Positions 4,167-21,384 of a DNA stretch of 64,000 nucleotides are shown here, piece after piece. Position 1 is the stretch's first letter; the number at the start of each line of letters is the position of its first letter. Source of the DNA: Niveispirillum irakense DSM 11586 (lineage in GTDB: Bacteria > Pseudomonadota > Alphaproteobacteria > Azospirillales > Azospirillaceae); the NCBI RefSeq assembly GCF_000429645.1, contig NZ_AUCG01000005.1, positions 1-64,000 on the forward strand. The letters are read 5' to 3'. The translations under genes were made by a program, and so were the position numbers. The notes under the pieces are model-generated. The model saw only the letters and a program-made list of their open reading frames with translations, was not told the origin of the DNA and ran no database searches.

Positions 4167-4182
4167 TCCCCCGTCCGGGCTG

Positions 4183-5037: not shown

Positions 5038-5038
5038 G

Positions 5039-5905
5039 TTACACCCTTCCCCGACCATGATGTTCTTGCACAAAGACATGCGACATCAGGCTGGATATCC
5101 ATTTACGCCCCTCCAGCGTCACTTCCAGGAAGGACAGGCCGCCCAGAATGTGATGATGGACATGGTTCCAGAAAAAGGCCGGATATGTGCGGCGCAAATC
5201 AGCCGGGGACTGGTTGCCCATCTTCTCATTAGCGCCAATCTCGGCAAACTCCTGAAACAGGGCCGGCAATTTGCGCAGATAATCCGGATCGGCCATCTGG
5301 CCGATCAGATCGGCAGCGGATACCAGGCCCGGCCAGCTTTCCAGCGCCTTTTCCCCGCTGGCGGGTACAGGAAACCGTGTATTTTCAATACAAGTGCAGA
5401 CAAAGTCGCTATCAATAATGCGATCATCCTTGAAACGCCAGCTGACAAACAGCTTCCCCCGCTCCACATGATAGGGGGTCAGATAGGCATCCGTCATACC
5501 GGGCGGAACGGTCACCGTATCGCCGGCGGCATTGATCACCGCGATATTGCCCCGATCGCCGGGGCACACACCCTGCAGGTAGCCGATATCATGGCACAGC
5601 AGGGCAACCAGATAATTCACCCATTCAGTCGGGCTGACATTGCCTTCGCGCAGCATCTTGCCATGCACGATCTCCTGCCCGACCATGGTCACCATGATCG
5701 AATGTTCGTAATCATGATAAGGGGCGGTGGAATTGACCAGCGCTTCCATCGCCAGAACGGCGGTGGTGGAAAGGGCGTTGGTATGTTCGGGATACAGGCT
5801 GCCATAAACGCGGTGGAACCCATCCAGCAGACGGGCGACAAACGCATCAATCACAATCTGCCTGCTGTCAAATCCATGCATCCTGAGACCGGTCCTCCTG
5901 TTCAT
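5039..5905 (-). CDS. HD-domain metal-dependent protein, possible RiPP tailoring enzyme
   Basis: 288 residues with intact HD-superfamily ligands: YHDYEH, ALLCHDIGY and a further His in PYHVERG. HD proteins are usually phosphohydrolases or phosphodiesterases; a minority (MIOX/PhnZ type) are di-iron oxygenases. The sequence alone does not tell which. The start ATG 5905 overlaps the GNAT stop (ATGA) and follows GGAGGGG. An alternative ATG lies at 5881. Co-transcription with a double-GNAT and position beside the NHLP precursor suggest a role in peptide maturation or its control. Confidence 0.65.
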   Translation of the reverse strand: MNRRTGLRMHGFDSRQIVIDAFVARLLDGFHRVYGSLYPEHTNALSTTAVLAMEALVNSTAPYHDYEHSIMVTMVGQEIVHGKMLREGNVSPTEWVNYLVALLCHDIGYLQGVCPGDRGNIAVINAAGDTVTVPPGMTDAYLTPYHVERGKLFVSWRFKDDRIIDSDFVCTCIENTRFPVPASGEKALESWPGLVSAADLIGQMADPDYLRKLPALFQEFAEIGANEKMGNQSPADLRRTYPAFFWNHVHHHILGGLSFLEVTLEGRKWISSLMSHVFVQEHHGRGRV

Positions 5906-6906
5906 GCCGCGGCCCCTCCGGGCTTGGCGATCAGGTCGCACCGGCTGGCCAACAGATAATCCGCCATGGTGGCATGGGGGCGGAAGTGTTTTTCCAGCAT
6001 GTACCACATTGTTTTGTTGAGATGCGTCGTTTCGAACGCCGCTATGGCGTCCGGCCCCTGATTTTCAGCCAGCATGGCCGTGACGCGGGCAATCGCCGCC
6101 ATCAGCAGGCCGCGCCGCGCATGGTCGGGATGGATCCAGCCAATAGGGAAGAACCAGCGCCCCACCGCCACCTGATGTTCGCAGATGATCCAACCCAGGG
6201 GATTATCCTGCCCGTCAAGGATCAGCAGGCTGTAAAGCGGGTCAAGTTGCGCCAGCCAGGGCCTGGGGTCGCCCCAATCCGGCAGGGTACCGCCATCCCC
6301 CATCATTGTGGCAAGGGTAACTAGGCGCTCCTTCACCTGCGCCGGTGCGTGCCCCCAGGAAATGATGCAGATATTATCTCTTTCCAACCGGGCCAGAAGC
6401 TGATCCCGACGGGTGAAGACGCGCTCTGTGCGGTCCACGGTGCTTTGCAAGCGCAGACTGGCCTGCCGGGGTGGTGTCCAGCCCGACCGCGACAGCAGCG
6501 CCGCCAGCGCTGCGCTTCCCGGTAACCGGTCCGACCATTCCGTCACCAAAGCGCTATGCCCCTGCCTGGCTCCCCAATCGGCAAAGGCGGCCATGAGCCG
6601 GCCACCGGTGCCCAGGCGCCGCCAGCCAGAAGCCACAACGATGGAATAGAGTTGGGGCGGCGGTTCCCGCACCAGATTGGGACCGGCCAGCAACAGGCCC
6701 ACCGGCCGGTCATCGGTCCAGGCGGCGAAGGCAACGTGACGGACTTGATCCAGCCCACTCAACAAACCCGCCATGGAACGGAAGGTCAATGGGGCCAGGA
6801 TGGATGCCTCGGCCGCATCCGCCGGGCGGATGATGATGTCCCCATTGCCTTTGCCTTGCTGCAAAGGGCTGGCATCCAGGATCATGATGGAAAGGCCCCC
6901 CGGCAT
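5902..6906 (-). CDS. Tandem-domain GNAT acyltransferase (copy A, NHLP branch)
   Basis: 334 residues with two GNAT-like halves. The N-terminal half has a GNAT core around SIVVASGWRRLGTGGRLMAA (motif A-like acyl-CoA loop). The C-terminal half has GWIICEHQ and IHPDHARRGLLMAAI, followed by AFETTHLNKTMWYML. It is clearly homologous to the protein at 15926-16888 (shared GCLLLGP/GLLLAGP, GWII-E and A-ET---N--M patterns). GNAT enzymes move an acyl group from acyl-CoA to an amine. GNAT-family maturases that fatty-acylate lysine or ornithine side chains of NHLP- and Nif11-leader precursors (selidamides) are known. First gene of a three-gene operon divergent from the NHLP precursor. Start ATG 6906; ATG 6885 is possible. 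Confidence 0.75.
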   Translation of the reverse strand: MPGGLSIMILDASPLQQGKGNGDIIIRPADAAEASILAPLTFRSMAGLLSGLDQVRHVAFAAWTDDRPVGLLLAGPNLVREPPPQLYSIVVASGWRRLGTGGRLMAAFADWGARQGHSALVTEWSDRLPGSAALAALLSRSGWTPPRQASLRLQSTVDRTERVFTRRDQLLARLERDNICIISWGHAPAQVKERLVTLATMMGDGGTLPDWGDPRPWLAQLDPLYSLLILDGQDNPLGWIICEHQVAVGRWFFPIGWIHPDHARRGLLMAAIARVTAMLAENQGPDAIAAFETTHLNKTMWYMLEKHFRPHATMADYLLASRCDLIAKPGGAAA

Positions 6907-7160
6907 CTCTCATATAGAGACCGCACTTTGACATGTATGAGGTCCAGCGGCATCTGCCCAGCCGCCCCGCCTTCCGCCTTAATTCTATGCGAAAATGACT
7001 GGCGCGCTTTAGCCGGTTACGCGCGCGCATAGTAAAGTTGGAAAGAGAATTATCGCAAAGCGTCAAATCCTTTCCGCATAGCCCGGCCTGTTTGAAAAGA
7101 TCGGAAAGGAATATTAAACACTATACTTATCAGCGGGCGGTTCCGTTGATTGAAGGGATT

Positions 7161-7174
7161 ATGGTTTCAACCAT
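7161..7174. promoter_or_regulatory. Inverted repeat in the divergent GNAT/NHLP promoter region
   Basis: The 322-bp gap 6907-7228 carries no convincing gene. It is locally AT-richer than its surroundings and must hold both divergent promoters. It contains the perfect inverted repeat ATGGTT-TC-AACCAT, 55 bases before the NHLP start, and a TATACT -10-like hexamer at 7122-7127 without a well-spaced -35. The repeat could be an operator, but no regulator is assigned. Confidence 0.3.
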
Positions 7175-7228
7175 CCCCGGATCGAAGCGGCCGACCGGCC
7201 ATATTCTTCCACTTTCCCGGAGACAAAG

Positions 7229-7561
7229 ATGAGTGAGGAGAGCAATCCGCTCCAGAAGGTCCGTGACCAGACGGTCACAGCCCTGATCCATCGCGCACAG
7301 ACGGATGCGGAATTCCGCGATGTGCTGCTGAACGACCCGCACAAGGCGATTGAGCGCATCCTGGGCGTGGATCCGTTGCCGGGCCATAAGATCAATATCA
7401 TTCAGGAGCAGCCGGGAGAGATCAACATCGTCCTGCCGGCCAACCTGGACGAAAGCGAATTGCCGGATTCTCTGCTGGATCTCGCCTCTGGCGGCACATC
7501 TTTCTCCGCCTTCATCCTGTACGGCCCGCCGTACCCGGATAAGAAGCCGAAGAAGCGCTAA
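7229..7561 (+). CDS. NHLP-type RiPP precursor peptide
   Basis: 110 residues. Residues ~5-89 match the nitrile-hydratase-like leader: a helical start, then TDAEFRDVLLNDP, then ILGVDPLPG followed by INIIQEQPGEINIVLP, and an acidic DESELPDSLLDLASGG ending in a double-Gly site (Gly88-Gly89). C39 cleavage there would release a 21-residue core beginning TSFSAFILYGPPYP and ending in a basic tail KKPKKR. The core has no Cys, so lanthipeptide, thiazole and disulfide chemistry are unlikely. It has four Lys. The start ATG has CGGAGA six bases upstream, and a strong terminator follows. Genes for a C39 exporter and a double GNAT flank it. Confidence 0.88.
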   Translation: MSEESNPLQKVRDQTVTALIHRAQTDAEFRDVLLNDPHKAIERILGVDPLPGHKINIIQEQPGEINIVLPANLDESELPDSLLDLASGGTSFSAFILYGPPYPDKKPKKR

Positions 7562-7583
7562 ATATTACAAAATATATTTTTCC

Positions 7584-7601
7584 GGTGGAATATTATCCAC
7601 C
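7584..7601. other. Small stem-loop after the NHLP gene
   Basis: GGTGGA-ATATTA-TCCACC is a perfect 6-bp stem following an AT-rich tract. No T-run follows it on either strand, so it is not a terminator by itself. It might protect the 3' end of the short precursor mRNA. Confidence 0.35.
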
Positions 7602-7610
7602 TGACAACTG

Positions 7611-7645
7611 CGGCCTTTGACCATTACCGGTCAGAGGCCGTTTTT
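7611..7645 (+). terminator. Rho-independent terminator of the NHLP gene
   Basis: A 12-bp stem with one mismatch (CGGCCTTTGACC against GGTCAGAGGCCG), a 6-base loop and TTTTT. It separates the precursor transcript from the convergent exporter operon. Confidence 0.85.
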
Positions 7646-7704
7646 CTTTGCGGTCGTGACGGGCAAAATAAAGGCGGTGCCCGAAGACACCGCCTGTGCC
7701 GGGA

Positions 7705-8250
7705 TCAGCAGGTCGGGCAATCTGCGAGACGCTTCAGCAGCCTGTCAAACCGGTCACCCGCCAGGGAAACCGTGTCCAACAGCCCTTCATCCAGTTCATC
7801 GCCCTGCACCGTGTCTTCCTGCAAGGGCTGGTCGGCGCTGTAGCCCATACGCTGAACCGTGCCGCGCAAACGATCGGCCAGGAACAGGGCGATGGCGCGG
7901 TAAAAGCGCATGGCGAAACCAACATCGCTGGCCAGTTTGGCCGCCAGAACCTTCTTTTCCAGCATCAGGACCGATCCCGGCCCCGCCGCCGTGACGGAGG
8001 CGGAAGGCGGTGCACTGTCAACAAAGGACAGTTCGCCGATAATCTCGCCTGCGCCCAAGGCAGCGACATTGCCGACATTGCGCACCACCACATCCATGCG
8101 CCCGTCGAGAACGATGAACAGGTGGTCGCTCTGCTCGTTCTGGCGGACCAGAACATCCCCTGCATTCACGGCGCGGCGGCGGCCCTGGCGGGCCATCCAT
8201 TCCACATCCATGTCGTCGAGCTGCCCCAGAATATAGAGTACCTTACGCAT
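7705..8250 (-). CDS. Cyclic nucleotide-binding-domain protein of the bacteriocin-type export locus
   Basis: 181 residues. Residues ~5-120 form a Crp-type cNMP-binding beta-roll (GRRRAVNAGDVLVRQNE, DHLFIVLDGRMDVVV, LGAGEIIGELSFVD). There is no DNA-binding helix-turn-helix, so it is not a Crp/Fnr regulator; the C-terminus is helical and acidic. Proteins of this kind recur next to NHLM transporters and are described as bacteriocin-type transport-associated. It is the last gene of the exporter operon, 30 bases after the ABC gene, with GAGGGA before its ATG. It may gate export in response to a nucleotide. Whether it binds a nucleotide is unknown. Confidence 0.8.
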   Translation of the reverse strand: MRKVLYILGQLDDMDVEWMARQGRRRAVNAGDVLVRQNEQSDHLFIVLDGRMDVVVRNVGNVAALGAGEIIGELSFVDSAPPSASVTAAGPGSVLMLEKKVLAAKLASDVGFAMRFYRAIALFLADRLRGTVQRMGYSADQPLQEDTVQGDELDEGLLDTVSLAGDRFDRLLKRLADCPTC

Positions 8251-8280
8251 CTGTCCCTCGCCTTCTCAGCGGTGTCTCAA

Positions 8281-11193
8281 TCACAGCATCTGACGCCGCG
8301 CCAGCGCGGCAAAAACCCCATCATGGGCCAGAAGCTCGGCGAAGCTGCCCTGCTCCACCAGCCGGCCCCGGTCGATCACCAGAATACGGTCCACTTTCTG
8401 GATGGTGCTGAGCCGGTGGGCGATCATCACCCGCGTCACATCCAGCTTTTCCAATGATTGCATCACGGCGGCCTGGGTGCGGTTGTCCAGGGCGCTGGTC
8501 GCCTCGTCCAGCAGCAGCAGACGCGGATGGCGAACCAGGGCGCGAGCAATCATCACCCGCTGGCGCTGCCCACCGGACAAGGTGCCGCCACCTTCCGCCA
8601 GCACCGTATGCATGCCCATGGGCATGGCCTCGATATCGCCCGCCAGCCCCACCTGACGGGCGGCTTCCCACGCATCTTCCAACCGGCCATTTTCCGAGCC
8701 CAGAATGTTGGTCAGCATGGACCCGGCAAATATACGCCCGTTCTGAAGCACAGTGCCGATCTGGCGGCGCACACTGTCCGACGCCAGCCGGCTCATCGGC
8801 CGGTTATCATAGAAAATCTCGCCCTGATGCGGCCGGTCGAGGCCCAGCAACAGGCGGAACAGGGTAGATTTGCCACTGCCGGACGGGCCGACAATGGCCA
8901 CAAATTCCCCCGCCCGGATGGAGAAGGAGAGGTTTTCCAGCACCAGCGGGCCGTCCGCCGAATAGGCGAAGGAAACGCCGGAAAACTCCACACCCCCGCC
9001 GAGCCGACCGGCATCGACACCATCGGCCACTTCTTCCAGCGGCGTTTCCAGCAAAGGTTTAGACCGTTCCCAGATCGGGAAAATACCCATCACAGAGGTC
9101 AGCGTGGCGACAAGTTGCGTCATCGCCCCCTGAAACTGGCCAAAGGCGGTGAAAAAAGCCATGAAGCCGCCGGCCTGCAGGGCCGCAGTGCCACCACCAT
9201 CCACACCGGCCAGTGATTGCAGCGCCTGTTCAGCCATCAGCCCTTTGGCGATCAGCACCACCGATGCCATCAGCACCACGGTTGAGATGGGCGCGAAGAT
9301 GGATTGGAACACGGTCTGCGACCGGGCCACCGCTTCCCCCGCCAGGGAGTGACGGCGCTGGGCGCCATAGCGGTGCATCCAATGCACGGTGGCGCGTTGG
9401 ACAGCCGCCGCCACCTTCAGCTTGGCAATGCCGGTGATGAATTGCAGCACCAGCCCTTCGGCCATGCCGCGTTCCTTCGCCTCCCGCCTTTCATGACGAA
9501 GCTGGATCAGGCTGAGCCCGACCGTAATGGCAATGGAAAGCGCCACCAGTCCCATGGCGATGAAGGCAAGCTTCACCGAATAGAAAAACAAAACCACCAG
9601 ACTGGCCAGCGACATCACCCCGCCCAACAGGGCAGACAGGGCGGCCCCGGCCAGCATCTCCCGGATAGCATTGATGCCAAGCGCACGGTCGGACAGATCG
9701 CCAATCGTATAGCGTTTGAAAAAGGCTGCCGGCAACCGCAGCAGCCGGTCGACAATGGCGGCCTGCAGCTTCATGTCCAACCACGCCTGCAGGCGCAGCA
9801 CGGCATGGGTCTTGGTGAATTCCAGCGTACCGATGCACACGGCCACCGTCACCAGCCCCGCCACCAGCAGCCAGAGCTGATCAACCGCCGCCGCCGGCAC
9901 CACCTTATCCACCAGCAGGCCCGTCGCCACCGGCGTGAACAGGCCCAGCATGGCCGCACCGAAGGAGAGTAGCCCGATGCTGAGCCGGTCACGGCCGGTA
10001 CCATGCAGGCCCAGCCGCACAAAATCCAGCAGCCCGACCGGCCGGGCCGGCAGGGTGGGATAAATGGTCTGCGCGCGCGGCGTCAGCGTCAGGGCCAGCG
10101 CCTCCGTCACCGGGGTCAGGGTGCCGGCACGCGGGTCCCAGAGATCATAGCCCCGATCCCCCGGCAACAGGGCCACCGTCCGCCCCCCTTCCGCCAGTCG
10201 CGCCACCATGGGCAGGCCCGTGCGACACCACCAGCGATCCCGCAACAGAACCTCGCGCCCACGCAGACGCACGGCACGCAAGCTGTCTTCCAGGGACAAA
10301 GGCTCCGGTGTTTCCACCGCCAAAGGGGTGGAATCCACGCCCAGCAGATCGGCGATGCGCCGGATGATGGCGCTTTCCTCCCGCCCTGCCGGCGCCTGAT
10401 TGCCAACCCGGCCCTTCAGGGTCGGATCGACCAGCGTAGCCAGCAGGCCGTAAGCCTCCTCCACATTCTGGCGGGCGAGTTCTTCGCGCCGCCGTGCCGC
10501 ACCCGCCTGCTCCGCAGCTTCTGCCGATAACTGGGCCTCCACCTGCCGGCCCAGCATCTGACCCACCTGGGCCAGGGCGCTCTCCAGCAACCCCTCTTCC
10601 CGCATCTCGCGGGAACTGCGCAGGGACAGACGGGCCGCGCCATTGGCACGCAGCCACCGCCCGGCGATCAAAGGGATGGGCAAGGGGGGCATCGGGCCTT
10701 CCGGCCCTTCAACAACCCCTTCCTCCACCGTCACCCACAGGCAACCCTGGGACGGGTGCAGCGTCACCGCATCACCTTCCGCCAGATCATGCCGCCCCTG
10801 GGTCAATACGCGGGCAATCTGGCCGCCCGGCAAGTCCCGCGGGCGCAGGATGGCGCCGATCCATTGGTCGATATCGGGCAGCGGTGGCGGCCGGTCGGTC
10901 GCCAGTGTCTCCACCTGGGCATCCAGGCCCCCCACGGCCAGCAGGCCCAGCAGACCTGCTTCCCCGCCGCCGATCTGCGACACGGGCCAGATACAGCCCC
11001 CGGCGGAAACACGGGTGATGAAATGGCGGCGCCCCTGCTCCTGCCCATCCCGACAGCGCACGGCAAACAGATCAACAAATCCCGTCACCACGCGCAGGGG
11101 ACCGGGAAGCATCCATAGGGGCTGCGGCGCGTCGGCACGCAAGGCGCGCGCGGTACGGGAACGGGGCGGAACGGTCGTCACGGTTTCCTGCAT
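8281..11193 (-). CDS. NHLM system ABC transporter, ATP-binding/permease subunit
   Basis: 970 residues. The N-terminal ~400 form a soluble region with a cupin/cNMP-like start. A six-helix type I exporter membrane domain (~400-700) and an ATPase domain follow, with Walker [10 protein letters not shown], signature LSGGQRQR and Walker [13 protein letters not shown] all intact. This matches the second ABC subunit of NHLM microcin-type exporters, which lacks the C39 peptidase and pairs with the peptidase-bearing subunit. The start ATG 11193 has AGGCGGGAA upstream; a GTG at 11205 would overlap the upstream stop. Confidence 0.9.
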
Positions 11194-11201
11194 TTCCCGC
11201 C

Positions 11202-13439
11202 TCACCCTTCCGCCGCGACAAGGCCGGCATAGGGGCCCTCTTCCGCCACCAATGTCTCATGCGTGCCGCGCTGCACGACGCGGCCTTTTTCCAGCACGAT
11301 GATCTCGTCACAATCGCGGATCGTGGACAGGCGATGGGCAATGATCAGGCAAGTGCAGCCGCGCCGGCGGATATTCTCGTCAATCGCCTTTTCCGTGATC
11401 GGGTCAAGGGCGGCGGTTGCCTCGTCCAGCACCAGGATGGCCGGATCACGCACCAGCGCCCGCGCGATTTCCAGCCGCTGCCGCTGCCCGCCGGAGAAGT
11501 TCAGCCCGCCTTCCAGAACCTGGCTGTCATAGTGGCCGGGACGCTGGCTCACCTCGCCATGGATTTCCGCATCCTTCAACGCCTGGGTCAGTGCCGGTTC
11601 AGGCACCGTGCTGTCCCAGAGGCTGAGATTATCGCGCACCGTGCCGCCGAACAGGAAGACATCCTGATCCACATAGGCAACTGAACTGGCAAAAATATCG
11701 GGCGGAATTGCCTTTAACGGATAGCCATCAATCAGGATTTCCCCCGACCAGGGCTCCAGCAGGCCGCACACCATGCGCCCGATGGTGGATTTGCCGCTGC
11801 CGGAAGCCCCCACCAGGGCAACGCGGCGGCCCGGCGCCACGGTCAGGGAAAGGCCTTCCACCATCGCCGGCTCACAGGGGCTGTAGCCGAAGCTGATATC
11901 GCGCAGTTCCACCCGCCCTTCCAGCCGCGCGCCCGGCGGCGGGGCATGGCCAAGGGGCTGTTTGTCCGACCCATCGGCCTGATCAGCGACATAGACATCA
12001 GCGATACGGTCCAGATCACCCCTTATGGCCTGAATCTGGCCGGCAAGCTGCACCAGCCCGGTGATCGGTGTGGTGAAACTGGCCATCAGGGCCTGGATCG
12101 CAACTAGGGACCCGACCGTCAGGCTGCCATCAATCACGCGCCATCCGCCAATACCCAGCAAGGCCGCTGTCGACAAAGCCGCCAGCAAGGTGGGCGCCGC
12201 CCCCAGTGTCACATCCAGCGACCCCAAACGCTGGCGCGTGGCCAGCACACGGGCCTGGTAGCCGGTCCATTTGCCGAACATGTCGGCCTCGCCACCGGAA
12301 ACCTTGATGGTCTCGATCCCGCCGATCAGGCCGGCGGTGGCGGCCATCAACTTACCCTCGTCACCAGCCAGCTTGCGGTTCAGGTCAATGCGGCGCCGTT
12401 CCGCCAGTTTCAGCAGGGCAATGTTCCCCAGCACCAGCACAATAGCCACAAGGGCCAGCAGCGGATCGAAGGCCGCCATCGCCAGCCCATAAAACAGTAC
12501 GGCGGTGAGATTGAACATGTTGGTGGCAAGGCTGCCGGACAGCAGTTCTGCCACACGGTCCACCGCCGCTGCCCGGTTTGCCAGATCGCCCGCCATGCGC
12601 TGGGTGAAGAAATGCATGGGGCGGGAAAGAAGGTTGGTCAGATAGCGGGTGGAGAGGGCAAGCGCCAGCTTGGCCCGCAGCCGCATCAATTGCCGCTGCT
12701 GGAAGAAGGTCAGCATCCCCTGCATCAGACCGGACAGCAGGACGCCCAGGCACAGCGGCACCACCCAATCTTCCATCTGGTGGACCAGCACATTGTCGAT
12801 AAACACTTTCGACAAGCCCGGCAGCACAATGCCCGGCAACACAAGCAGCATGGAAAAAGCTGCCGTCACCGCCAGCGGCGGCCAGGAATTGCGCAGATAA
12901 AGGGCCGCCTGATCCACAATACGGGGTCGCCTGCCGCCCCGCTTGAACCCCTCACCAGGGGAGAAAGCCAGCACAACGCCGGTAAAGGCCTCGTCCAGTT
13001 CCGCCAGTGGAATGCGCGTCGGCCCGTGGCTGGGATCATTGATATGGGCATGGCCGTCCTTGATCCCTTCAAAGACGACATAATGGTTGAAATTCCAATG
13101 GATGATGGACGGCACCGGCAGGGAAGCAAGCTGACCCGGCTCTTTGCGGAAGCCCTTTGCCACCATGCCGCGCGCCCGGGCCGCCTTCAGGATATTGGAG
13201 GCCTTGGACCCGTCGCGCGACACACCGCAAGCGATGCGCAATTCTTCCAGCGTCGCCCATTGGCCATGATAGGCCAGGATCATGGCGAGGCAGGCCGCCC
13301 CGCATTCCACCGCCTCCATCTGCAGGAAGGTCGGCACCCGGGCCACCTTACCGGTCGGCTTGGACAGGGCTTCCGCCGGTTTACCCGTCTGTCCAGGGTT
13401 CGGGCGGGCGGCGGTCGTTGCTGCACTCATGCTGGCCAT
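11202..13439 (-). CDS. NHLM system C39 peptidase-containing ABC transporter
   Basis: 745 residues. An N-terminal C39 peptidase has the catalytic triad visible as Cys46 (AVECGAAC), His119 (NFNHYVVFEG) and Asp135 (INDPSHG). A membrane domain and an ATPase follow, with Walker A GASGSGKST, signature FSGGQRQR and Walker B LVLDEATAALD. It should cleave leaders after a double-Gly-type site and export the core. Both the NHLP and Nif11 precursors in this window are candidate substrates. Start chosen at ATG 13439; GTG 13448, overlapping the HlyD stop as GTGA, is an alternative. Confidence 0.92.
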   Translation of the reverse strand: MASMSAATTAARPNPGQTGKPAEALSKPTGKVARVPTFLQMEAVECGAACLAMILAYHGQWATLEELRIACGVSRDGSKASNILKAARARGMVAKGFRKEPGQLASLPVPSIIHWNFNHYVVFEGIKDGHAHINDPSHGPTRIPLAELDEAFTGVVLAFSPGEGFKRGGRRPRIVDQAALYLRNSWPPLAVTAAFSMLLVLPGIVLPGLSKVFIDNVLVHQMEDWVVPLCLGVLLSGLMQGMLTFFQQRQLMRLRAKLALALSTRYLTNLLSRPMHFFTQRMAGDLANRAAAVDRVAELLSGSLATNMFNLTAVLFYGLAMAAFDPLLALVAIVLVLGNIALLKLAERRRIDLNRKLAGDEGKLMAATAGLIGGIETIKVSGGEADMFGKWTGYQARVLATRQRLGSLDVTLGAAPTLLAALSTAALLGIGGWRVIDGSLTVGSLVAIQALMASFTTPITGLVQLAGQIQAIRGDLDRIADVYVADQADGSDKQPLGHAPPPGARLEGRVELRDISFGYSPCEPAMVEGLSLTVAPGRRVALVGASGSGKSTIGRMVCGLLEPWSGEILIDGYPLKAIPPDIFASSVAYVDQDVFLFGGTVRDNLSLWDSTVPEPALTQALKDAEIHGEVSQRPGHYDSQVLEGGLNFSGGQRQRLEIARALVRDPAILVLDEATAALDPITEKAIDENIRRRGCTCLIIAHRLSTIRDCDEIIVLEKGRVVQRGTHETLVAEEGPYAGLVAAEG

Positions 13440-13444
13440 TCCGG

Positions 13445-14701
13445 TCACGCCGTCTGGCCAAGCAGCTTGCGGAAGAAGGGCAGGATCAGTTCCACCGGCC
13501 GCTGCCGGCGAACCGTGATTTCCGCCGCCACCATCGTGCCGCTGGTCAGGTCAACCTCTGGCCCGGCACCGGATGTCCAGGTGAAGCCGCTGGGGGTGCT
13601 GGCCGGCACCAGATCCACCCTTGCCTCGTAAGGGGCCCCTTTCTTGGTAAATTCACGCACCAGCGTCTCATTCTGCACCACGGCGGCGATGCCGCTATCG
13701 GTGGAAGGATATGCTGACACAGAACGGACAGTGCCGATCAGCGTGCCGAATTCCTCCTTCTTCACCGTCGCCGGCGCGATACGGACCTGCATGCCCGGCT
13801 GTACCGTCTTGCCCTTGTCGGTTGGGATATAGAGAATGGCTTGCAGGCTTTCGCCCACCGTCTCAATGGACAGGATCGGGGCGCCGGTGCCGACCACACT
13901 TCCCGCCCCGACCTTCAGTTCCGTCACCCGACCACTGACCGGCGCGCGGACAGCAGCGGAATTGGCCAGTTGCAGGGACAATTCATCCACCCGCCTCCGC
14001 GTTTCCGTAACAGAATCCCGCAGACGGTTGATTTCACGCTCCCCCTCCAGATTGGCCTGCATGGACTGGCTGTCCAGACCCACAAGTTCGGCCTGCGCCT
14101 CTGCGAAGGTGCGCTGTGCCTCGCCCAGCGCCTCCTGTGCCTCCTGCACCCGGCTGCTGGTTGTGTAGCCCTGGGATTGCAGTTCCCGGCGACCGGCAAG
14201 CTGTTCCTCCAGGAAGCGGATTCGCCCACGCGCCGCTTCCGCCGCCTGGGCCAGGGCCTGACGCCGCCGGCTCAGGTTCTCCTGGCGCAGCGCCAGTTCC
14301 CGCTCCAGGGATTTTTCCCGTGCCGTCAGTTCGGCCTCCCGCTCCGCCAGCAGGGCGCGGGTATTGTTCAGGTCCAGTTCCGTTTCCGCTTGGGCAATGG
14401 TTGCAACCACCTGCCCCGCCTGCACCATGTCCCCGACGGCGACATCCAGTTCCGCCAGGGTGCCGGCGGAAAGAGTCATGGCCGTTACCACACGGCCACC
14501 CTGGTTGATCAGGATGCCCTGGCCCGGCGCGTCGGTGGGGATGGAACCAGCAAAGCCCCAGACGAGGGCGGCAACAGCCGCCAGTGCCAGCCCGCCAAGG
14601 GCGACCCGGGCACGCATGTCGGTGACGTTGACGACCAGATCAAGCTGCTCCGGCGACGCGATACGCTCCAGCGCAGCCTTGCGGAATATCTGCGTCGACA
14701 T
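13445..14701 (-). CDS. HlyD-family membrane fusion protein of the NHLM exporter
   Basis: 418 residues. A short cytoplasmic N-terminus (IFRKAALERIASPEQLD) precedes one membrane helix at ~33-55. A long coiled coil (~110-240, rich in Leu/Glu/Arg heptads such as AEREAELTAREKSLERELAL) and a beta-barrel/lipoyl region follow. It links the inner-membrane ABC pair to an outer-membrane channel, which is not encoded in this window. First gene of the operon HlyD-C39 ABC-ABC-cNMP. The ATG at 14701 fits the family start better than upstream in-frame codons. Confidence 0.88.
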   Translation of the reverse strand: MSTQIFRKAALERIASPEQLDLVVNVTDMRARVALGGLALAAVAALVWGFAGSIPTDAPGQGILINQGGRVVTAMTLSAGTLAELDVAVGDMVQAGQVVATIAQAETELDLNNTRALLAEREAELTAREKSLERELALRQENLSRRRQALAQAAEAARGRIRFLEEQLAGRRELQSQGYTTSSRVQEAQEALGEAQRTFAEAQAELVGLDSQSMQANLEGEREINRLRDSVTETRRRVDELSLQLANSAAVRAPVSGRVTELKVGAGSVVGTGAPILSIETVGESLQAILYIPTDKGKTVQPGMQVRIAPATVKKEEFGTLIGTVRSVSAYPSTDSGIAAVVQNETLVREFTKKGAPYEARVDLVPASTPSGFTWTSGAGPEVDLTSGTMVAAEITVRRQRPVELILPFFRKLLGQTA

Positions 14702-14774
14702 AGGTCCCCGTACGTCTTGTGTTAATGCAAATTCAATAGAAATAGGGCAAGGCACGCCTCGGCGCAGCCACCCC

Positions 14775-14916
14775 GAACAATGCGTTAGGGCTCTCCCGAA
14801 GGGATAATACAATGCGCAACGGACAGTCCGTTATAATTAATCCTCACATTGCATTCTTGTTTGCAATCCACGGGAATATGCGGAATTTGTCGTGGGTTGC
14901 AGCCTTGAACAATGCG
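14775..14916. promoter_or_regulatory. Regulator-binding candidates between exporter operon and AraC gene
   Basis: The 299-bp gap 14702-15000 contains a perfect inverted repeat AACGGAC-A-GTCCGTT at 14818-14832. It also has three direct copies of ACAATGCG (from 14777, 14809 and 14909), two of them in the longer form GAACAATGCG (14775-14784 and 14907-14916). AraC-type regulators often bind direct repeats in such divergent promoters. No clear -35/-10 pair was assigned. Confidence 0.5.
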
Positions 14917-15000: not shown

Positions 15001-15924
15001 ATGACCTTGCCTTTACTGGCGATGACAGATCAACTCGACGGTCGGGCCGAGATTCTGGAACTGGGACCGGGTATCCGTCTGCAGCTTCTGGACGTCACGG
15101 CAGCGCGGGAGCTGGACATAACCGGAACAGGACCGGCAGATGGTCACTGCCTCAACCTGATTGGCCTGACCCATGGCGGGCTGCGTCTCTCCATGGATAA
15201 GGAAGCGCCGGAAGAAGGCTGGGTCAGCGTCAATGCAGGGCGTACGCACCGTTTCATGCCGGGTGACGGGCAAGTGCATATCCAGGTTCCGGCAGGGGAA
15301 AATCTGCGCGGGATCGGCCTGCAGGTCACCCCGCCAGCATTGGAAAATCTGTTCGGCGCGGCTGGCGTACCGCGCGTTCTGCAATGCTATCTGGAAACGG
15401 GACCGAAACCCGCCTTCTTTGAGAGCAGACTGCCCAGCGCCGGCACGTTACGGGTGGTAGACAGTATGCTGGCACAGGATATGGCCGATCCCGCCCTGCG
15501 CCGGTTACTGCTGCTGGCAAAGGCACTGGAATATCTGGCGCTCACCGTCTCTGACCTGGAAGCCCCGGATGATGATCCCTCCGGCCTGTCCGCACAGGAG
15601 GTGGAAATCCTGCGTACGGCCCGGGAAAAGCTGCTGGCAGATCTGATCAAGCCGCCTTCGCTGCGTCAGTTGGCAACCTCCGTAGGGCTGCATGAGAAGA
15701 AGCTGAATGAAGGGTTCAAGACCCTGTTCGGCGTCACCGTGTTCGAATGTTTGCGCAACGAACGTCTGGAACAGGCCCGGACATTGCTGTTCGATCTGGA
15801 CATGCCGTTGAAGACGATCGCGTGGAAGGTCGGCTACAGCCACGTCAATAATTTCATCACCGCCTATCGCAATCGCTTTGGCGAGCCGCCGCGCCGGCAT
15901 CTCTCCGGCACACGGGAAGGGTGA
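15001..15924 (+). CDS. AraC-family transcriptional regulator
   Basis: 307 residues. The C-terminal ~95 residues form the two-helix-turn-helix AraC domain: SLRQLATSVGLHEKKLNEGFKTLFG, then MPLKTIAWKVGYSHVNNFITAYRNRFGEPP. The N-terminal part is a PchR-like ligand or interaction region without recognisable ligand residues. It is divergent from the exporter operon across a gap with direct and inverted repeats, and convergent with the branch 2 GNAT gene (1-bp gap). It is the natural candidate controller of exporter 1. The start ATG 15001 follows a GGGGG tract; ATG 15022 is possible. Confidence 0.85.
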   Translation: MTLPLLAMTDQLDGRAEILELGPGIRLQLLDVTAARELDITGTGPADGHCLNLIGLTHGGLRLSMDKEAPEEGWVSVNAGRTHRFMPGDGQVHIQVPAGENLRGIGLQVTPPALENLFGAAGVPRVLQCYLETGPKPAFFESRLPSAGTLRVVDSMLAQDMADPALRRLLLLAKALEYLALTVSDLEAPDDDPSGLSAQEVEILRTAREKLLADLIKPPSLRQLATSVGLHEKKLNEGFKTLFGVTVFECLRNERLEQARTLLFDLDMPLKTIAWKVGYSHVNNFITAYRNRFGEPPRRHLSGTREG

Positions 15925-15925: not shown

Positions 15926-16888
15926 TTACGCCGGCACCGGCTGGGGCGGCAGGTCCGCCCATTGCAGCCGGGCCTGGAAACGCCGGTCGGTCCAGGCCGC
16001 AAAAGGGGCCACATGGTCCAGGATGGTCCGGATCATGGCCTGATTGGTGCCCCGCGTCTCATAAGCGGCGGGGCTGTCAGGGCCATAGGCAGCAGCCTGA
16101 AGCCGCGTGACTTCCATCAGTCCCCGGAAAAGCCAACCCGCGCGGCGCAAGGATGGCACGACATAGCCCAGCGTATAATGGATACCCTCCATCCGCGGTG
16201 ACCGTTCCCCGATGATCCAGCCGACGATCCGCCCGTGATGCAGCAGCAGGATGCTGACCGCCGGATCGGCATGATCCATGATCCAGCCCACCGGGCGCAG
16301 CATTTCCTCCACCTGACCGCTCTCACAAAGGGCAGTGATCGCCGCGTCGGCGCCCGGCGGCCTGGTCGAATGAAGCATCAGGCCGAAGCCCTCATCATCC
16401 TGCCGGCGAAACAGGGCGGACCATTTGGCAGCAACCTTCTCGGCAAACGGCCCCGCCGGCCCACCGACCCGCACCTCTTCCAGCACTGGGGTCTGCCAAC
16501 CGGCATGCTGCAACAACGCTTCATAAGCGCCCCGCAAACGCATGCGGTCATTGTGATAGGCGATCAGCCCGGCATGGCCAGAGGCCAGCGCCACGCTGCG
16601 GGCCTGCGCCAACAGGGCCGCAGCCACCCCCCGGCGGCGCAGCGGCGGGGCCGTCATGATGGAAAAGACACGGGTAAGCCCCGGACGATCTGGCCCCAGC
16701 AGCAGGCACCCGGCCGGGACCCCGTCCAAAGCGGCCGTCAGCGCTGTAAAAACCTCTGGTGCGGGCTGCGCGACATCGTAATCGACAATCTCCCCCGTCA
16801 GGACATAGCGATGGCGGGGATAGAGAAAGCCGGCAAAGCCAGGGCGGATCGCCCCGCCCGGCAGATTTTCAATCTCAAGCACAGGCAT
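15926..16888 (-). CDS. Tandem-domain GNAT acyltransferase (copy B, Nif11 branch)
   Basis: 320 residues with two GNAT-like halves. The first shows IMTAPPLRRRGVAAALLAQARSV (acyl-CoA binding loop R-R-R-G-V-A). The second shows GWIIGERSP, YVVPSLRRAGWLFRGLMEV and AAYETRGTNQAMIRTIL. It is a paralogue of the GNAT at 5902-6906. It starts 11 bases after the Nif11 precursor stop and so is in the same transcript. A precursor directly followed by a GNAT makes a dedicated maturase likely; the probable target is the only lysine of the predicted core. Acyl donor unknown. Confidence 0.75.
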   Translation of the reverse strand: MPVLEIENLPGGAIRPGFAGFLYPRHRYVLTGEIVDYDVAQPAPEVFTALTAALDGVPAGCLLLGPDRPGLTRVFSIMTAPPLRRRGVAAALLAQARSVALASGHAGLIAYHNDRMRLRGAYEALLQHAGWQTPVLEEVRVGGPAGPFAEKVAAKWSALFRRQDDEGFGLMLHSTRPPGADAAITALCESGQVEEMLRPVGWIMDHADPAVSILLLHHGRIVGWIIGERSPRMEGIHYTLGYVVPSLRRAGWLFRGLMEVTRLQAAAYGPDSPAAYETRGTNQAMIRTILDHVAPFAAWTDRRFQARLQWADLPPQPVPA

Positions 16889-16899
16889 GCCCGAACCGG

Positions 16900-17193
16900 T
16901 CAGGGGCCCCAACCGCCCTTCGGCCCGCCCTGATCCGTGATGGCGGCACCAGCCGATACCAGTTCCAGTTCCAGGTCGGTCAGTTCATCATCATTGGCGA
17001 TATCGATGAAGCTCTTGATATCGCTCAAGGCCTCCCCCACCGTATCGGCCCCGATCTCAAACCCGCGCGATGATGCTTCCGCCCGCAGGGCCGTGATCAG
17101 CGTGCCGAGGTCGCGGCAGGAAGACAGACGCTGCATCAGCGCCTCATCCTCGCGCACCATACGGTAGAAATCGATCAGCGCATCTTCACTCAT
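16900..17193 (-). CDS. Nif11-type RiPP precursor peptide
   Basis: 97 residues. The leader has the Nif11 pattern: DALIDFYRMVREDEALMQRL, then RGFEIGADTVGEALSDIK, ending with an LTDLELELVSAG site that resembles the usual LSDEELE-V-GG cleavage region. Cleavage after Gly82 would leave a 15-residue core (AAITDQGGPKGGWGP) rich in Gly with one Lys (Lys92) and no Cys. The GA pair (82-83) makes cleavage one residue later also possible. The GNAT gene follows at once, and the fused C39-ABC exporter diverges upstream. The non-consensus SAGA may reflect co-evolution with that exporter's peptidase. Confidence 0.82.
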   Translation of the reverse strand: MSEDALIDFYRMVREDEALMQRLSSCRDLGTLITALRAEASSRGFEIGADTVGEALSDIKSFIDIANDDELTDLELELVSAGAAITDQGGPKGGWGP

Positions 17194-17259: not shown

Positions 17260-17556
17260 CATATACGGTCCAGAGCGCGAAAACTGTGAGGCAAAGCACA
17301 CCCTTGACCAGCCACCTTCCTTTCCATACCGGCCATGGCACGGAACCGGTCGGGAATGCGGCTTTATTCAACATTCCCGCGATGGCCAACAAAGGCAATA
17401 TGCGCCACCCTCTGCGAAACAGACCAACAACTATGCGGGCAGGCAAATATCGGAAAAGGCTCACGCATAGCATGTCGGGATCGACAAGCGCCGCCGCCAC
17501 ACCCTAGACCATTATCAGACGATGGACGCCAATCGACAGGGACAAGGGAAAGATCG

Positions 17557-20500
17557 GTGGCAAAAAGGCGGGGCCTGGGCCGGGTAACCACACCTTCCAT
17601 CCGGCAACGGCAGGATAGCGAATGTGCCGTCGCCGCCCTGGCGATCATCCTTGGACATTATGGCCGGCACGTACCGATGGAACAGTTACGCCACGAAACC
17701 GGCGTATCGCGCGATGGCAGCCGCCTTTCCATCATCGCCGCCACGGCACGCCGCCACGGGCTGGTGGTGCAAAGCTTCTCCCGCCCGCCGGAAACGCTGG
17801 CGGATCTGGGCTTTCCCCTGATCGTGCAGGTGGATTTCAACCATATGATCGTGGTGGAAGGGCTGGATGCGGAGAATGTGCGGGTGAACGACCCTGCACG
17901 CGGCCCTTATGTCATGCCGATGGCGGAGTTCGATGACCGTTTCACCGGCATTGTTCTGCGGATGCGGCCGGGGCCGGATTTCACACAGCTCGCCCCCACC
18001 CCCGGTGCAGGATCGGTCGTGGCCGACATGGCGCGGCGTCAGGCGGGGTGGCTGGCTTTCATCCTGGTCGCCACCCTGGGGGGCTGGACGGCAGCAGCCT
18101 ATGCCGCCCTTCAGCCGGAGCAAGCAGCCCTTCCCCTGGCAATGGCTGCCCTCCTGCTCACCCTCCGCATCTGGGGCCAGCGCCATCTCGCACGCACCAT
18201 CACCCTGGGAGAAGGGGACAGGCTGGCCCCGCGGCTGCTGGGCCAGCCCGATCTTTTTTACCGTTACCGCTTCGCCCGGACGCTGGCGGGAACGGCGGAA
18301 GCGCCTATGCGTCTTGCCCAATGGGTGGAAGGCAAGGCGGGATCGGCCCTGCTGGATATGATCGCGCTGGTGCCATGCCTGATCCTGCTGGCCCATCTTC
18401 ATCCATTGATCGGGACAGGTGCCCTCTTTCTCACCCTCTTATGCCTGGCACTTTTCTGGCGGCAGGCGGGCCGGCGGCAGGCCCCGGCCAGCGGTGGCGA
18501 CCGGTTCGGTGCAATGCCGGCCCTGCCGGCAGCCGAAAGCTTATGGTCCATCGGGCTGTTGAAGCTGGCCGGTCGTCACCATGCCTTTCTGGATGGAATG
18601 TTGAACCGGGAGGCCCAGCGGCTGGACCAGATGCAGCGGGCCGGGGCGGCCATGCTGCCCTGCCTGCTGGCACCTATCGCGTTGACACTGGCACCGACCA
18701 TGGCGGCGACATGGATAGCCCCGGCAGAGAGGGTGCCCATCGGCATGCTCTCGCTTCTGATCCTCTATCCCCTGGTCCGGCTGGCACTGTCCCACAGCCT
18801 GTTGCGCGCGCCTGTGGAAGAAGCACAGGCCATGGCCGATCCGGGCCCGCCCGCCCTGGCAACACTGACGACCGGTATAAAAGCGGGAAAAGCGGCAGAC
18901 GCAGAAGCCGCAAGACTGGATCGGGTCAGTTTCGGCCATGTCATCGGCCAGCCAGCGGTGATCCATGATCTGTCACTGGTCCTGCCCACCGGTTCCCAGA
19001 CCGGACTGACGGGGGAACGCGGGGCCGGGTGCAGCACCCTTGGCCTGCTGCTGACGGGGCTGGCCTTACCCTGGCAGGGTACGGTCACCATCCCCGCGGC
19101 GGCGGCCCTGGTAACGCGCCATGGCCTGCTGCCCGGCACAGTGCGGGACAATATCAGCCTGTTCGACCCGACAGTGACTGATGCGGCCATCATGGCTGCA
19201 CTGGGACAGGCCTGCATCGACAGGGCCGTACTGGCCAAACCAGGGGGGCTGGATGCCCAGGTTACCGGGGATGACGGGCTGTTCAGTGGCGGGGAACGGC
19301 GACGGCTTCTTTTAGCCCGTGCCCTGGTTCGCCAGCCCCGCCTGCTGGTGCTGGACGGCATCCTTGACGGGCTGGACCTGCCGCTGGAACGGCGCCTGCG
19401 TGAGGGGCTTCGCCATGCCGGCATCACCCTTGTGATCATCAGCCAGCGGGGTGAAACCCTGGCGGCCTGTGATCAGTGTTTCCACCTGAAAGGGGGGGCT
19501 TTGGCACCGTGGCAGGCCGTGGCGGACCTTTCCACCCCGCCCCCCTTGCCGCAGATTGAAACCGTCCCCCTCCCCCCATTGGCCGCCCCCGCCCCCTGCA
19601 CAGCAGCGGAATGGCATGCCCTGTCCCTTCTTGCCGGGAATGGTACTGCAACCCCGCCCCTGCCAGGGCAAACGCTGATGGCCGCGGCCCGGCATCTGGG
19701 GCTGCATCTGCGACCGGTGCGCCTTACCAGCGGCTGGATGGCACGCGACCACGGGCCCTTGCTGCTGTTTGCCGATGATGGCCGGATATTGCCCCTCCGC
19801 CCCATCGCAGGCACTTATGGCGAGGTGACGGCAGGGGGGATGAAGAAACTCACCTCTCTTCCAGCACTGACCGACCGCCAGCCTTATTCAGTGCAGCCAA
19901 TCGCCGATAGTGATCCTACTGCTTTCCGCGCCGGGCGCGATTTGGCGGCGGCCCTGTTGCTGCTGATCCTGGCCGCGGCATCCTTGCTGATGGCTGGATA
20001 TGGCCCCCCAGGCCTGATGGCGGCACTGGCGGGGCTGGTCCTGGCGCTGGCGGCGGGCGGCTACTGGCTGCGGGCGCTGGGTATCGTCGCATGGCAACAA
20101 CAGGCAGGTACTGCCGCACGGCTGTTGCGTCTGCCTGCCTGGCATTATCGCGGGTTGGGACAGGACACACTCACCCGGGGGCTGAGCGGGCTTTCCACCC
20201 TGCTGCTGGACAGGCCGCCGGCCTCGATGATGGCGGTGGCAGGGGGGCTGCTGATGCTGGCTGGCGTGATGGCTGGTGCCCTGCAAACCCTCCCCGTGGC
20301 AGGGACGATGGTGGCGGGCGGCCTCCTGTTTGGCTGGTGCCGGGCGAGGGGCGAAGCGGCACGGCAAAAGGACCATGTGGCATGGGAAAAATTCACCTTC
20401 GCCATGATGAGCCATTTTCCCGTTCTGCGGCGTCTGGGGGCGACCGGGGCACTTCAGCAGCATGCCCGTCTGCTGGCGTTGGCTTCAGATAGAAGCCATG

Positions 20501-21384
20501 GCCGGACGCAAGTCCCGATCAATCTCTACCGCGCTTTGTTGCCCCTTCTGCTGGTGGCAGGCGCAAGCTTTGCCGGGGGCATCGGGCTGCCAGGCCTGCT
20601 GGCCTTGATCGGGGGCACCCTGGCGGCGGAGGGTACGTTCATCCTCATGGCGTCATCCCCTGCGAAAAGAGCGGCGCACCCCCTGCTCGCCGCCACACCG
20701 GAGGCCCTGTTCCACCAGGAAGGGGACGATGATTTTTCCGGCAGCCTCGCTTTGGAGGCGGTGCGCTTCACCTATCCAGGACAGGCCCGGCCCGCCGTGG
20801 ACGGGGCCAGCCTGATGGTGGCGCCGGGGCAGGTTGTGGCGCTGACCGGGCCATCCGGCTGCGGCAAGTCCACCCTGCTGCGGCTGCTGCTGGGGTTCCA
20901 GCCGCCAGACCAAGGAACAATCCTGATCGATGGCGTGCCCTGTCCCATCTCCCGCCTGTTCGCGCTGCGCCAGCGGATGGACGCTGTGGAGCAGGATATG
21001 CCCCTGCCCCTGGCAACCGTGCGCCACCATCTGACCGGCACCTTTCCCCGCCCGCTGGAGGAGTTGGAGGCTGTGTTGAGGCTGGTGGGATTGTGGGACG
21101 ATATCGCAGCCCTGCCCATGGGGCTGCAATCGCTGGTCTCTGACAGCAATCTGGCTGCCAGTCAGGTGCAGCGCCTGCATCTGGCCCGATGCCTGCTGAC
21201 ACGGCCGCGCCTGCTGGTGCTGGATGAGGCGACCGCCGCCCTGGACCCGGAAACGGAACGCACCCTGGTTGCCACCATCCGTGCCATGGGCAGCGCCCTG
21301 CTGCTGGTCACCCATCGCCCGCGCACGCTGGCCCTGGCCGACCATGTTTACAGGATGGAAGGCGGAAGGATGGTCACAGCATGA
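17557..21384 (+). CDS. Single-chain C39 peptidase-ABC-ABC exporter
   Basis: 1275 residues from GTG 17557, which has AAGGGAAAG upstream. C39 peptidase with intact Cys23, His96 and Asp112; membrane domain 1 (~165-440); ATPase 1; soluble linker; membrane domain 2 (~790-1000); ATPase 2. ATPase 1 has a broken Walker A (GERGAGCST, Cys492 for Lys) and Gly601 in place of the catalytic Glu, but a good signature (FSGGE). ATPase 2 has an intact Walker A (GPSGCGKST, Lys1104) and Walker B-Glu (LVLDEAT) but a broken signature (LAASQ). By the usual head-to-tail pairing one composite site is complete and the other dead. It appears to be the two NHLM ABC subunits fused. Presumed exporter of the Nif11 product. 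Confidence 0.85.
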   Translation: MAKRRGLGRVTTPSIRQRQDSECAVAALAIILGHYGRHVPMEQLRHETGVSRDGSRLSIIAATARRHGLVVQSFSRPPETLADLGFPLIVQVDFNHMIVVEGLDAENVRVNDPARGPYVMPMAEFDDRFTGIVLRMRPGPDFTQLAPTPGAGSVVADMARRQAGWLAFILVATLGGWTAAAYAALQPEQAALPLAMAALLLTLRIWGQRHLARTITLGEGDRLAPRLLGQPDLFYRYRFARTLAGTAEAPMRLAQWVEGKAGSALLDMIALVPCLILLAHLHPLIGTGALFLTLLCLALFWRQAGRRQAPASGGDRFGAMPALPAAESLWSIGLLKLAGRHHAFLDGMLNREAQRLDQMQRAGAAMLPCLLAPIALTLAPTMAATWIAPAERVPIGMLSLLILYPLVRLALSHSLLRAPVEEAQAMADPGPPALATLTTGIKAGKAADAEAARLDRVSFGHVIGQPAVIHDLSLVLPTGSQTGLTGERGAGCSTLGLLLTGLALPWQGTVTIPAAAALVTRHGLLPGTVRDNISLFDPTVTDAAIMAALGQACIDRAVLAKPGGLDAQVTGDDGLFSGGERRRLLLARALVRQPRLLVLDGILDGLDLPLERRLREGLRHAGITLVIISQRGETLAACDQCFHLKGGALAPWQAVADLSTPPPLPQIETVPLPPLAAPAPCTAAEWHALSLLAGNGTATPPLPGQTLMAAARHLGLHLRPVRLTSGWMARDHGPLLLFADDGRILPLRPIAGTYGEVTAGGMKKLTSLPALTDRQPYSVQPIADSDPTAFRAGRDLAAALLLLILAAASLLMAGYGPPGLMAALAGLVLALAAGGYWLRALGIVAWQQQAGTAARLLRLPAWHYRGLGQDTLTRGLSGLSTLLLDRPPASMMAVAGGLLMLAGVMAGALQTLPVAGTMVAGGLLFGWCRARGEAARQKDHVAWEKFTFAMMSHFPVLRRLGATGALQQHARLLALASDRSHGRTQVPINLYRALLPLLLVAGASFAGGIGLPGLLALIGGTLAAEGTFILMASSPAKRAAHPLLAATPEALFHQEGDDDFSGSLALEAVRFTYPGQARPAVDGASLMVAPGQVVALTGPSGCGKSTLLRLLLGFQPPDQGTILIDGVPCPISRLFALRQRMDAVEQDMPLPLATVRHHLTGTFPRPLEELEAVLRLVGLWDDIAALPMGLQSLVSDSNLAASQVQRLHLARCLLTRPRLLVLDEATAALDPETERTLVATIRAMGSALLLVTHRPRTLALADHVYRMEGGRMVTA

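Follow-up and report, generated by a model that had tools for sequence, protein, structure and literature searches.

What does a cell make from an NHLP-leader precursor whose divergent neighbour encodes a GNAT enzyme? This question is raised by a locus in the first 64,000 nucleotides of contig NZ_AUCG01000005.1 of Niveispirillum irakense DSM 11586 (RefSeq assembly GCF_000429645.1), a stretch that is called the window below. The precursor and a tandem GNAT acyltransferase, GNAT1, are encoded by divergently oriented genes 322 bp apart. On balance, we lean towards the reading that this pair makes a lanthionine-free, selidamide-like acylated RiPP (ribosomally synthesized and post-translationally modified peptide), in which a lysine of the C-terminal tail, probably K17, is acylated before cleavage and export by an NHLM system. 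The features of the pair are as follows.

5902..6906, minus strand: GNAT1, tandem GNAT acyltransferase, candidate NHLP-precursor maturase (Pfam, AlphaFold2, Foldseek, P-loop, co-occurrence)
6907..7228, no strand: divergent intergenic region between GNAT1 and the precursor, 322 bp (sequence)
7229-7561, plus strand: NHLP precursor open reading frame (ORF), 110 amino acids, GGAG ahead of the ATG
7229..7495, plus strand: NHLP leader, 89 amino acids, ending LDLASGG (TIGR03793 match below the cut-off)
7496..7561, plus strand: core TSFSAFILYGPPYPDKKPKKR, 21 amino acids, plus stop codon (sequence, conservation)
7610..7641, plus strand: intrinsic-terminator-like hairpin, 13 pairs then a T-rich tail, 3' of the precursor (terminator scan)

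The precursor and its core

As in proteusins (NHLP-leader RiPPs), a long NHLP-type leader with a GG end is followed by a short core, with a TIGR03793 (leader_NHLP) score slightly under the curated cut-off (E 1.4e-12, 47.3 bits; cut-off 50.9). The precursor is the sole TIGR03793 match at E <= 0.001 in the whole 5.45-Mb genome. A preliminary description of the window had read a leader ending in LDLASGG, a Cys-free core of 21 residues and a KKPKKR tail, all of which were confirmed from the sequence and the TIGR03793 match. The terminator scan that gave the hairpin found 3 sites versus 0.9 expected. A promoter scan found no promoter-like site within the 322-bp divergent region, and an Rfam search of 4000-21500 returned no match.

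A chance ORF was ruled out, since relatives from other genera retain the core with only or mainly silent changes. Novispirillum itersonii ATCC 12639 has the identical core, with 7 of 21 codons silently changed and 0 replacements, and 39 of 75 leader codons differ by residue (core vs leader, Fisher 2.7e-6). Between a Rhizobiales bacterium and the window, residue changes numbered 0 of 19 in the core and 47 of 75 in the leader (1.9e-7). Ten chosen relatives were compared: all seven that were tested had a core more constrained than the leader (p 0.0064 to 1.9e-7), and in the remaining three (second copies at L054 and L058, and L080) 14, 14 and 7 of the 21 core residues differ. Ten genomes, this one included, carry the GPPYP core type; one of the others is a metagenome-assembled genome (MAG) named Azonexus, which we take to be betaproteobacterial. 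The near-invariance of this core type suggests that, in the organisms carrying it, the target or the physiological function is conserved, rather than the peptide serving as a variable weapon.

The preliminary description had also noted the lack of any standard RiPP modifying enzyme nearby, and this held: LanM, YcaO and radical-SAM proteins were absent from the 14 genes at 184-21384 by Pfam and/or NCBIfam, a scan that for YcaO and radical SAM was confined to these genes and did not extend to the window past 21384. No LANC_like domain was found in the whole genome, and a LanM with a LanC-like domain, which marks class II lanthipeptides, was not found. A lanthionine route was rejected for TSFSAFILYGPPYPDKKPKKR because the core has no Cys and the genome no LANC_like match.

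Pairing of the precursor with GNAT1

In 82 family genomes, GNAT1 gave 12 matches at E <= 1e-5 (eight with E < 1e-40, the rest none stronger than 1e-21) and the precursor profile gave 19 (eight with E < 1e-50, the rest none stronger than 1e-12). The strong matches of both fall in the identical eight genomes, with a naive Fisher p of 2.8e-11 that is too small because the genomes are related; GNAT1 at E < 1e-40 without the precursor was seen in 0 of the 82. Weaker GNAT matches in G003, G013, G025 and G026 (E 3e-12 to 6e-8) each adjoin another NHLP-like match.

An independent scan was made with the precursor alignment alone against a contig collection of 84,980 species and gave 25 loci. Twenty of these, spread over 19 genomes, encode an F[SC][AS]F core. 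Every one of the 19 genomes has a GNAT1 relative, and at 15 of the 20 loci such a relative is no more than 2 kb away. The other five loci (L092, L095-L098) have no motif and no GNAT in the fetched stretch, but their genomes hold a GNAT elsewhere. When loci reached through GNAT1 or plasmid searches were added, the F[SC][AS]F set came to 23 genomes, all with a GNAT1 relative and 19 with one within 2 kb of such a core. Novispirillum DSM 11590 counts among the 19 solely through a GNAT1 relative that adjoins two variant precursors. The pairing of an NHLP precursor with a tandem GNAT, as noted in the preliminary description, was upheld by both the family genomes and this wider set.

The pair also occurs apart from the exporter: four Azospirillum-type genomes carry it with no NHLM exporter in the fetched 20 kb, a stretch in which lanthionine synthetases were not searched. 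Among 22 compared loci (antisense ORFs aside), the most widely shared gene families were the GNAT and the precursor (19 each), with ABC exporters at 9. When precursor-type labels were mapped onto a tree of 37 GNATs, 5 label changes sufficed, the minimum possible, versus a shuffled mean of 17.7; near-copies help this score, L053, L055 and L101 were labelled from the genome rather than a neighbour, and the 'array' loci (see below) share one label though each also holds a motif-bearing core. Co-occurrence, usual adjacency, exporter-less pairs and GNAT clades that track precursor type support GNAT1 as the partner of this NHLP precursor.

In a class-wide sample of 385 genomes (E <= 1e-10), the GNAT1 profile matched at least 4 genomes including this one (up to five candidates per genome scored), and the precursor profile at least 6, this genome alone reaching the FSAF-group level (up to twelve candidates per genome scored). 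The GNAT match in G471 adjoins NHLM genes, where the search pattern found no precursor; those in G300 and G446 lie ~2 kb from Nif11-like ORFs. An NHLP trio on Tistrella mobilis pTM2 (H3) has no annotated GNAT in the 20 kb viewed.

Fold and P-loop of GNAT1

Pfam Acetyltransf_1 matches only the N-domain of GNAT1 (E 2e-8). An AlphaFold2 model built from an alignment of 26 relatives contains two GNAT domains (mean pLDDT 90.4), and Foldseek places tandem GNATs from the PDB among its best matches, with TM-scores of ~0.5: the clavulanic-acid tandem GNAT (2wpw), MAB_4324, VipF and mycothiol synthase. The divergent two-domain GNAT gene of the preliminary description is therefore borne out by model and neighbours. 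A histidine acetyltransferase solved with N-myristoyl-histidine (9emp) was a lower-placed match.

The P-loop of GNAT1, R96-R-L-G-T-G101, is found in the N-domain only. Among its relatives, [QR]xxGx[GA] is intact in 26 of 26 N-domains and 0 of 26 C-domains, and a wider GNAT set is split in the same way (20/20 and 0/20), nine rows being common to both sets. The preprint PMC13060382 describes the P-loop of NpuN (WP_012412981.1) as likewise intact in the N-domain only and Lys1 of NpuA as its acylation site. The tandem fold and N-domain P-loop of GNAT1 match the described features of NpuN, a likeness by description and not by sequence comparison. Two matches considered as NpuN kin were not used: H13 on a Nostoc plasmid, a TIGR03032-annotated protein with no annotated precursor nearby, and an unannotated Microcoleus match apparently split across two frames. 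Judged from sequence and predicted fold, acylation by GNAT1 is likely. The interpretation in the preliminary description, N-acylation of core lysines to give a cationic lipopeptide, is supported in part.

Candidate acylation site and proposed route

A lysine is present in the last five residues of all 28 distinct cores (tail shuffles: mean 23.4; 16 of 5000 reach 28) and at position 16 or 17 in 21 of the 28 (mean 13.2; 9 of 5000 reach 21), in shuffle statistics that ignore kinship among the cores. Three cores contain a single lysine, at positions 17, 17 and 16; Shinella and Pleomorphomonas have such single-lysine cores. This conservation and the single-lysine relatives favour K17 as the candidate acylation site in the window core, with FSAF as a putative recognition or function motif.

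In the proposed route, the NHLP precursor, an ORF under selection, is made first. The N-domain of GNAT1, the sole domain with an intact P-loop motif, would bind acyl-CoA, and the enzyme would catalyse acylation of a C-terminal-tail lysine, most likely K17 of TSFSAFILYGPPYPDKKPKKR. The analogous cases of NpuN, PhaN and kamptornamide point to a fatty acyl group in preference to acetyl. Cleavage after GG would then fall to the C39 peptidase of NHLM ABC1, and ABC1, ABC2 and HlyD would export the product, as expected from their families and co-occurrence. The peptide would be amphiphilic, its FSAFILYGP half hydrophobic and its tail basic.

Several observations weigh against this reading. The acylated lysine of the NpuN substrate is core residue 1, and here the lysines are at the opposite end. 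The PDB neighbours of GNAT1 are mostly acetyltransferases, and its role may be a general GNAT one (acetylation, protection). Seven of the 28 cores lack K16/K17, and Cys is present in 8 of the 28. In each of the seven, a Cys occurs within the final six residues with a lysine after it. The motif family is therefore heterogeneous and seems to comprise two core subtypes, one with K16/K17 and one with the Cys-then-lysine ending. Core identity to the window exceeds leader identity in only 14 of 28 distinct motif-bearing relatives, namely the GPPYP cores (8/8), the ILYGPNDAPP cores (3/3) and three others; on these alignments, strong core constraint is thus a property of certain core types and not of the whole motif family. 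Finally, close linkage fails in four of the 23 genomes, where no F[SC][AS]F core has a GNAT1 relative inside 2 kb. The GNAT of G071, G075 and Novispirillum ATCC 12639 is located elsewhere in the genome, and in Ensifer a GNAT1 relative is 2.4 kb off, with another GNAT gene nearer.

Three other explanations were weighed. GNAT1 could add a short-chain acetyl to a core lysine, neutralising charge for self-protection or tuning, instead of a fatty chain. The acetyltransferase majority holds for sequence as well as fold neighbours in the PDB, and among the best 60 profile matches the best stretch is the N-terminal CoA-binding part. But the three characterised products, as described, bear C10, C12 and C16 chains, and 9emp, a GNAT solved with an N-myristoyl product, is also among the structural matches; we regard the acetyl explanation as unlikely. 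Less probable again is acylation at another site, such as Ser4 of FSAF (O-acyl) or a leader residue, with the lysines merely supplying charge. Ser4 is found in 27 of the 28 cores, a count that is partly circular because F[SC][AS]F served to collect them, and FSAF recurs behind Nif11-like leaders in Ensifer. However, one relative has Cys at position 4 (TLFCAFLEYGPARPPKKR), the array loci pair related GNATs with motif-less cores too, and we know of no precedent for Ser O-acylation by a RiPP GNAT. Least probable, and improbable outright, is a GNAT acting in immunity or regulation beside an otherwise unmodified exported core: GNATs can serve self-resistance according to PMC13060382, and the peptide is already amphiphilic and cationic, but only GNAT and precursor reach 19 of the 22 compared loci (ABC exporters 9), the GNAT clade tracks precursor type, and the same preprint deems NpuN unlikely to be a resistance enzyme.

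Exporter and neighbouring genes

A four-gene block on the minus strand lies beside the precursor, followed by a regulator, a second precursor-GNAT pair and a second exporter.

7705..8250, minus strand: cyclic-nucleotide-binding, bacteriocin-transport-associated protein (TIGR03896-like; E 8.8e-46, 156.7 bits, cut-off 161.05)
8281..11205, minus strand: NHLM_micro_ABC2 exporter subunit (TIGR03797, 779 bits, above cut-off)
11202..13448, minus strand: NHLM_micro_ABC1 exporter carrying a C39 peptidase that should cleave after GG (TIGR03796, 981 bits, above cut-off; Peptidase_C39, E 8e-35)
13445..14812, minus strand: NHLM_micro_HlyD membrane-fusion protein (TIGR03794, 299 bits, above cut-off)
15001..15924, plus strand: AraC-family regulator, candidate cluster regulator (HTH_18, E 6e-19; relatives beside NHLM/GNAT2 in L066 and L067)
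15926..16912, minus strand: GNAT2, second tandem GNAT, 25-28% identical to GNAT1 (Pfam; AlphaFold2, pLDDT 88.0, two GNAT domains)
16900..17193, minus strand: RiPP precursor of the second pair, with a Nif11 leader that ends in LELVSAG and the putative core AAITDQGGPKGGWGP (Pfam Nif11, 29.2 bits, cut-off 23.8; TIGR03798, 27.9 bits, cut-off 32.3)
17335..21384, plus strand: fused C39 peptidase-ABC-ABC protein, a second exporter (L076-L078 and L093 have a similar sequence next to GNAT/NHLP)

The three components of an NHLM export system, ABC1 with its C39 peptidase, ABC2 and HlyD, are thus all present above curated cut-offs. NHLM ABC1 scored above cut-off in 8 of 8 pair-bearing genomes versus 26 of the 82 family genomes overall (naive Fisher 4e-5), also where it is not adjacent, and it was present in 17 of 17 positive genomes tested. 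This co-occurrence supports, without proving, NHLM export and leader cleavage of the peptide. Membership of the fused exporter in the system is less certain. Its single 1349-residue polypeptide joins a C39 peptidase-ABC half to a second ABC half and resembles NHLM ABC1 and ABC2 merged.

Downstream of GNAT1, with overlapping ends, are tandem HD-domain genes on the minus strand (4183-5905; Npun_R2479 family, below cut-off), the first of which is weakly like a cyclic-nucleotide phosphodiesterase. The genes at 4183-5079 and 5039-5905 (the start of the latter was chosen by us at the GNAT1 overlap) were excluded from the system because relatives occur away from, or without, GNAT1 and the precursor: those in G071 and G075, 90-92% identical, are on contigs separate from both, and a 73% relative occurs in G067, a genome that has neither. 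A cyclic-nucleotide link to the exporter is possible, given the HD genes and cyclic-nucleotide-binding protein here and cyclase genes in Shinella and Ensifer clusters. An MBG-domain protein and then a TPR/CHAT protein are encoded at 184-4166 on the plus strand. A CHAT relative is near GNAT2 in G075 (L067), and a secretion pair made up of an MBG-domain and a ShlB-type member adjoins GNAT genes on an Ensifer plasmid (L164).

A second precursor-GNAT pair and related loci

The preliminary description covered the NHLP/GNAT1 pair only; the Nif11/GNAT2 pair, the exporter and the conservation of the core are additional here. The Nif11 precursor overlaps the start of GNAT2 by 13 bases, and its leader, above the Pfam cut-off, ends in AG rather than GG. 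Together with GNAT2, and beside the same NHLM exporter, it probably yields a second acylated peptide. Two short ORFs precede GNAT2 in G071 and G075; in G071 one of them is Nif11-like (22.2 bits; Pfam cut-off 23.8) and the other has no match. Shinella sp. H4-D48 holds an NHLP precursor with a GNAT, a Nif11 precursor with a GNAT, and NHLM genes within one stretch.

An Ensifer plasmid (L164) carries NHLM genes and two GNAT genes. Its two precursors (8522-9352) combine Nif11-like leaders with the FSAF/FSSF cores TMFSSFVEHRTTKTLSCK and LGFSAFLFYNDRDRPSTPACKK. One precursor is annotated as Nif11-like (17.9 bits, below cut-off); the other has no Pfam match and resembles the first by eye. Here too GNATs are present, yet the leader in front of FSAF is of another kind, and the motif seems to pass from one leader type to another.

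Other loci differ in their cores. The array loci of Rhizobium and Pannonibacter (L087, L088, L090 and L091) each have two tandem GNATs and 6-8 NHLP-like stretches, whose cores differ greatly (ISFSSFLPPGGFHGETSWKNLCPNK, NAKECWWKFNQWAYKQDWMP, ...CKGDGWT...); combinatorial acylation is possible there. Precursors at L062, L068 and L070 seemingly contain two tandem NHLP-like stretches and a core APSPCNSRAG..., and the GNAT next to them forms a separate clade. Small alphaproteobacterial genomes contain Nif11-like ORFs whose cores are rich in histidine (KGHHHHHHHHGST...) (L155 ~11820, L156 ~5899), ~2 kb from a GNAT1/GNAT2-like gene, and might encode metal-binding peptides. A plasmid of Mesorhizobium sp. 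L-2-11 (L193) combines a Nif11 precursor, a radical-SAM epimerase, a GNAT, a radical-SAM C-methyltransferase and an NHLM exporter.

Comparison with known systems

Selidamides are described as GNAT-acylated RiPPs (PMC9505594, PMC13060382, PMC12703449). The main pair has the corresponding leader, NHLP at 47.3 bits (cut-off 50.9) with a GG-type site, and a GNAT-family enzyme that is encoded and paired with the precursor and is a candidate maturase. A lanthionine synthetase or ring, a trait of the three described selidamides but outside the definition in the literature, was not found. The nostolysamides of Nostoc punctiforme (npu cluster, NpuA/NpuM/NpuN; PMC13060382), as far as they are described there, share a leader of the Nif11/NHLP kind, a tandem GNAT with an N-domain-only P-loop and a core lysine. 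They differ in that no lanthionine synthetase was found here, the core is Cys-free, the lysines are in the tail and not at position 1, and the main pair is NHLP instead of Nif11. In phaeornamide and kamptornamide (PMC9505594, PMC13060382, PMC12703449), a GNAT maturase acylates a side-chain amine, and phaeornamide shares the NHLP leader and GG cleavage with the window precursor. Both are described as lanthipeptides with acylated (hydroxy)ornithine, whereas the residue here would be lysine, with no LanM among the scanned genes; the peptide arginase that phaeornamide requires was likewise not found among them.

The precursors and exporter of Haft et al. 2010 (PMC2887384) belong to the same leader family with an ABC1/ABC2/HlyD exporter. 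Their cores are described as hypervariable after GG, whereas in GPPYP-type relatives the core is the best-conserved part. Plasmid p1 of Shinella sp. H4-D48 (NZ_CP093338.1) also has an NHLP-GNAT pair, a Nif11-GNAT pair, a cyclic-nucleotide-binding protein and NHLM ABC2/ABC1/HlyD; its cluster further includes genes for a radical SAM protein and an adenylate/guanylate cyclase, and its core is IGFSAFVLYGPNDAPPKPRR. A search of open-access full text found no paper on this precursor type, the core string itself not being among the queries. The kind of system is already known; the novelty lies in a member without lanthionine, in the conservation of one core type and in the presence of two pairs.

If acylation is true, the locus would be a minimal lipopeptide pathway of one precursor and one enzyme, without lanthionine chemistry, and useful for dissecting how a tandem GNAT chooses its acyl chain and lysine. 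The NHLP and Nif11 GNAT systems beside one exporter would be a natural test of leader-GNAT matching. A broader proposal, which we put forward tentatively and consider doubtful as a whole, is that this two-gene RiPP pathway makes a lipopeptide of conserved function: the GPPYP product, nearly invariant in ten genomes from several alphaproteobacterial groups and one betaproteobacterial MAG, would be a shared signal, envelope or surfactant molecule, some genomes would add a second, Nif11-derived acylated peptide as a two-component system on one NHLM exporter, and the FSAF motif would move between leader types with its GNAT. The conserved core in one subgroup inverts the reported leader/core pattern of NHLP precursors, and a non-antibiotic role becomes directly testable.

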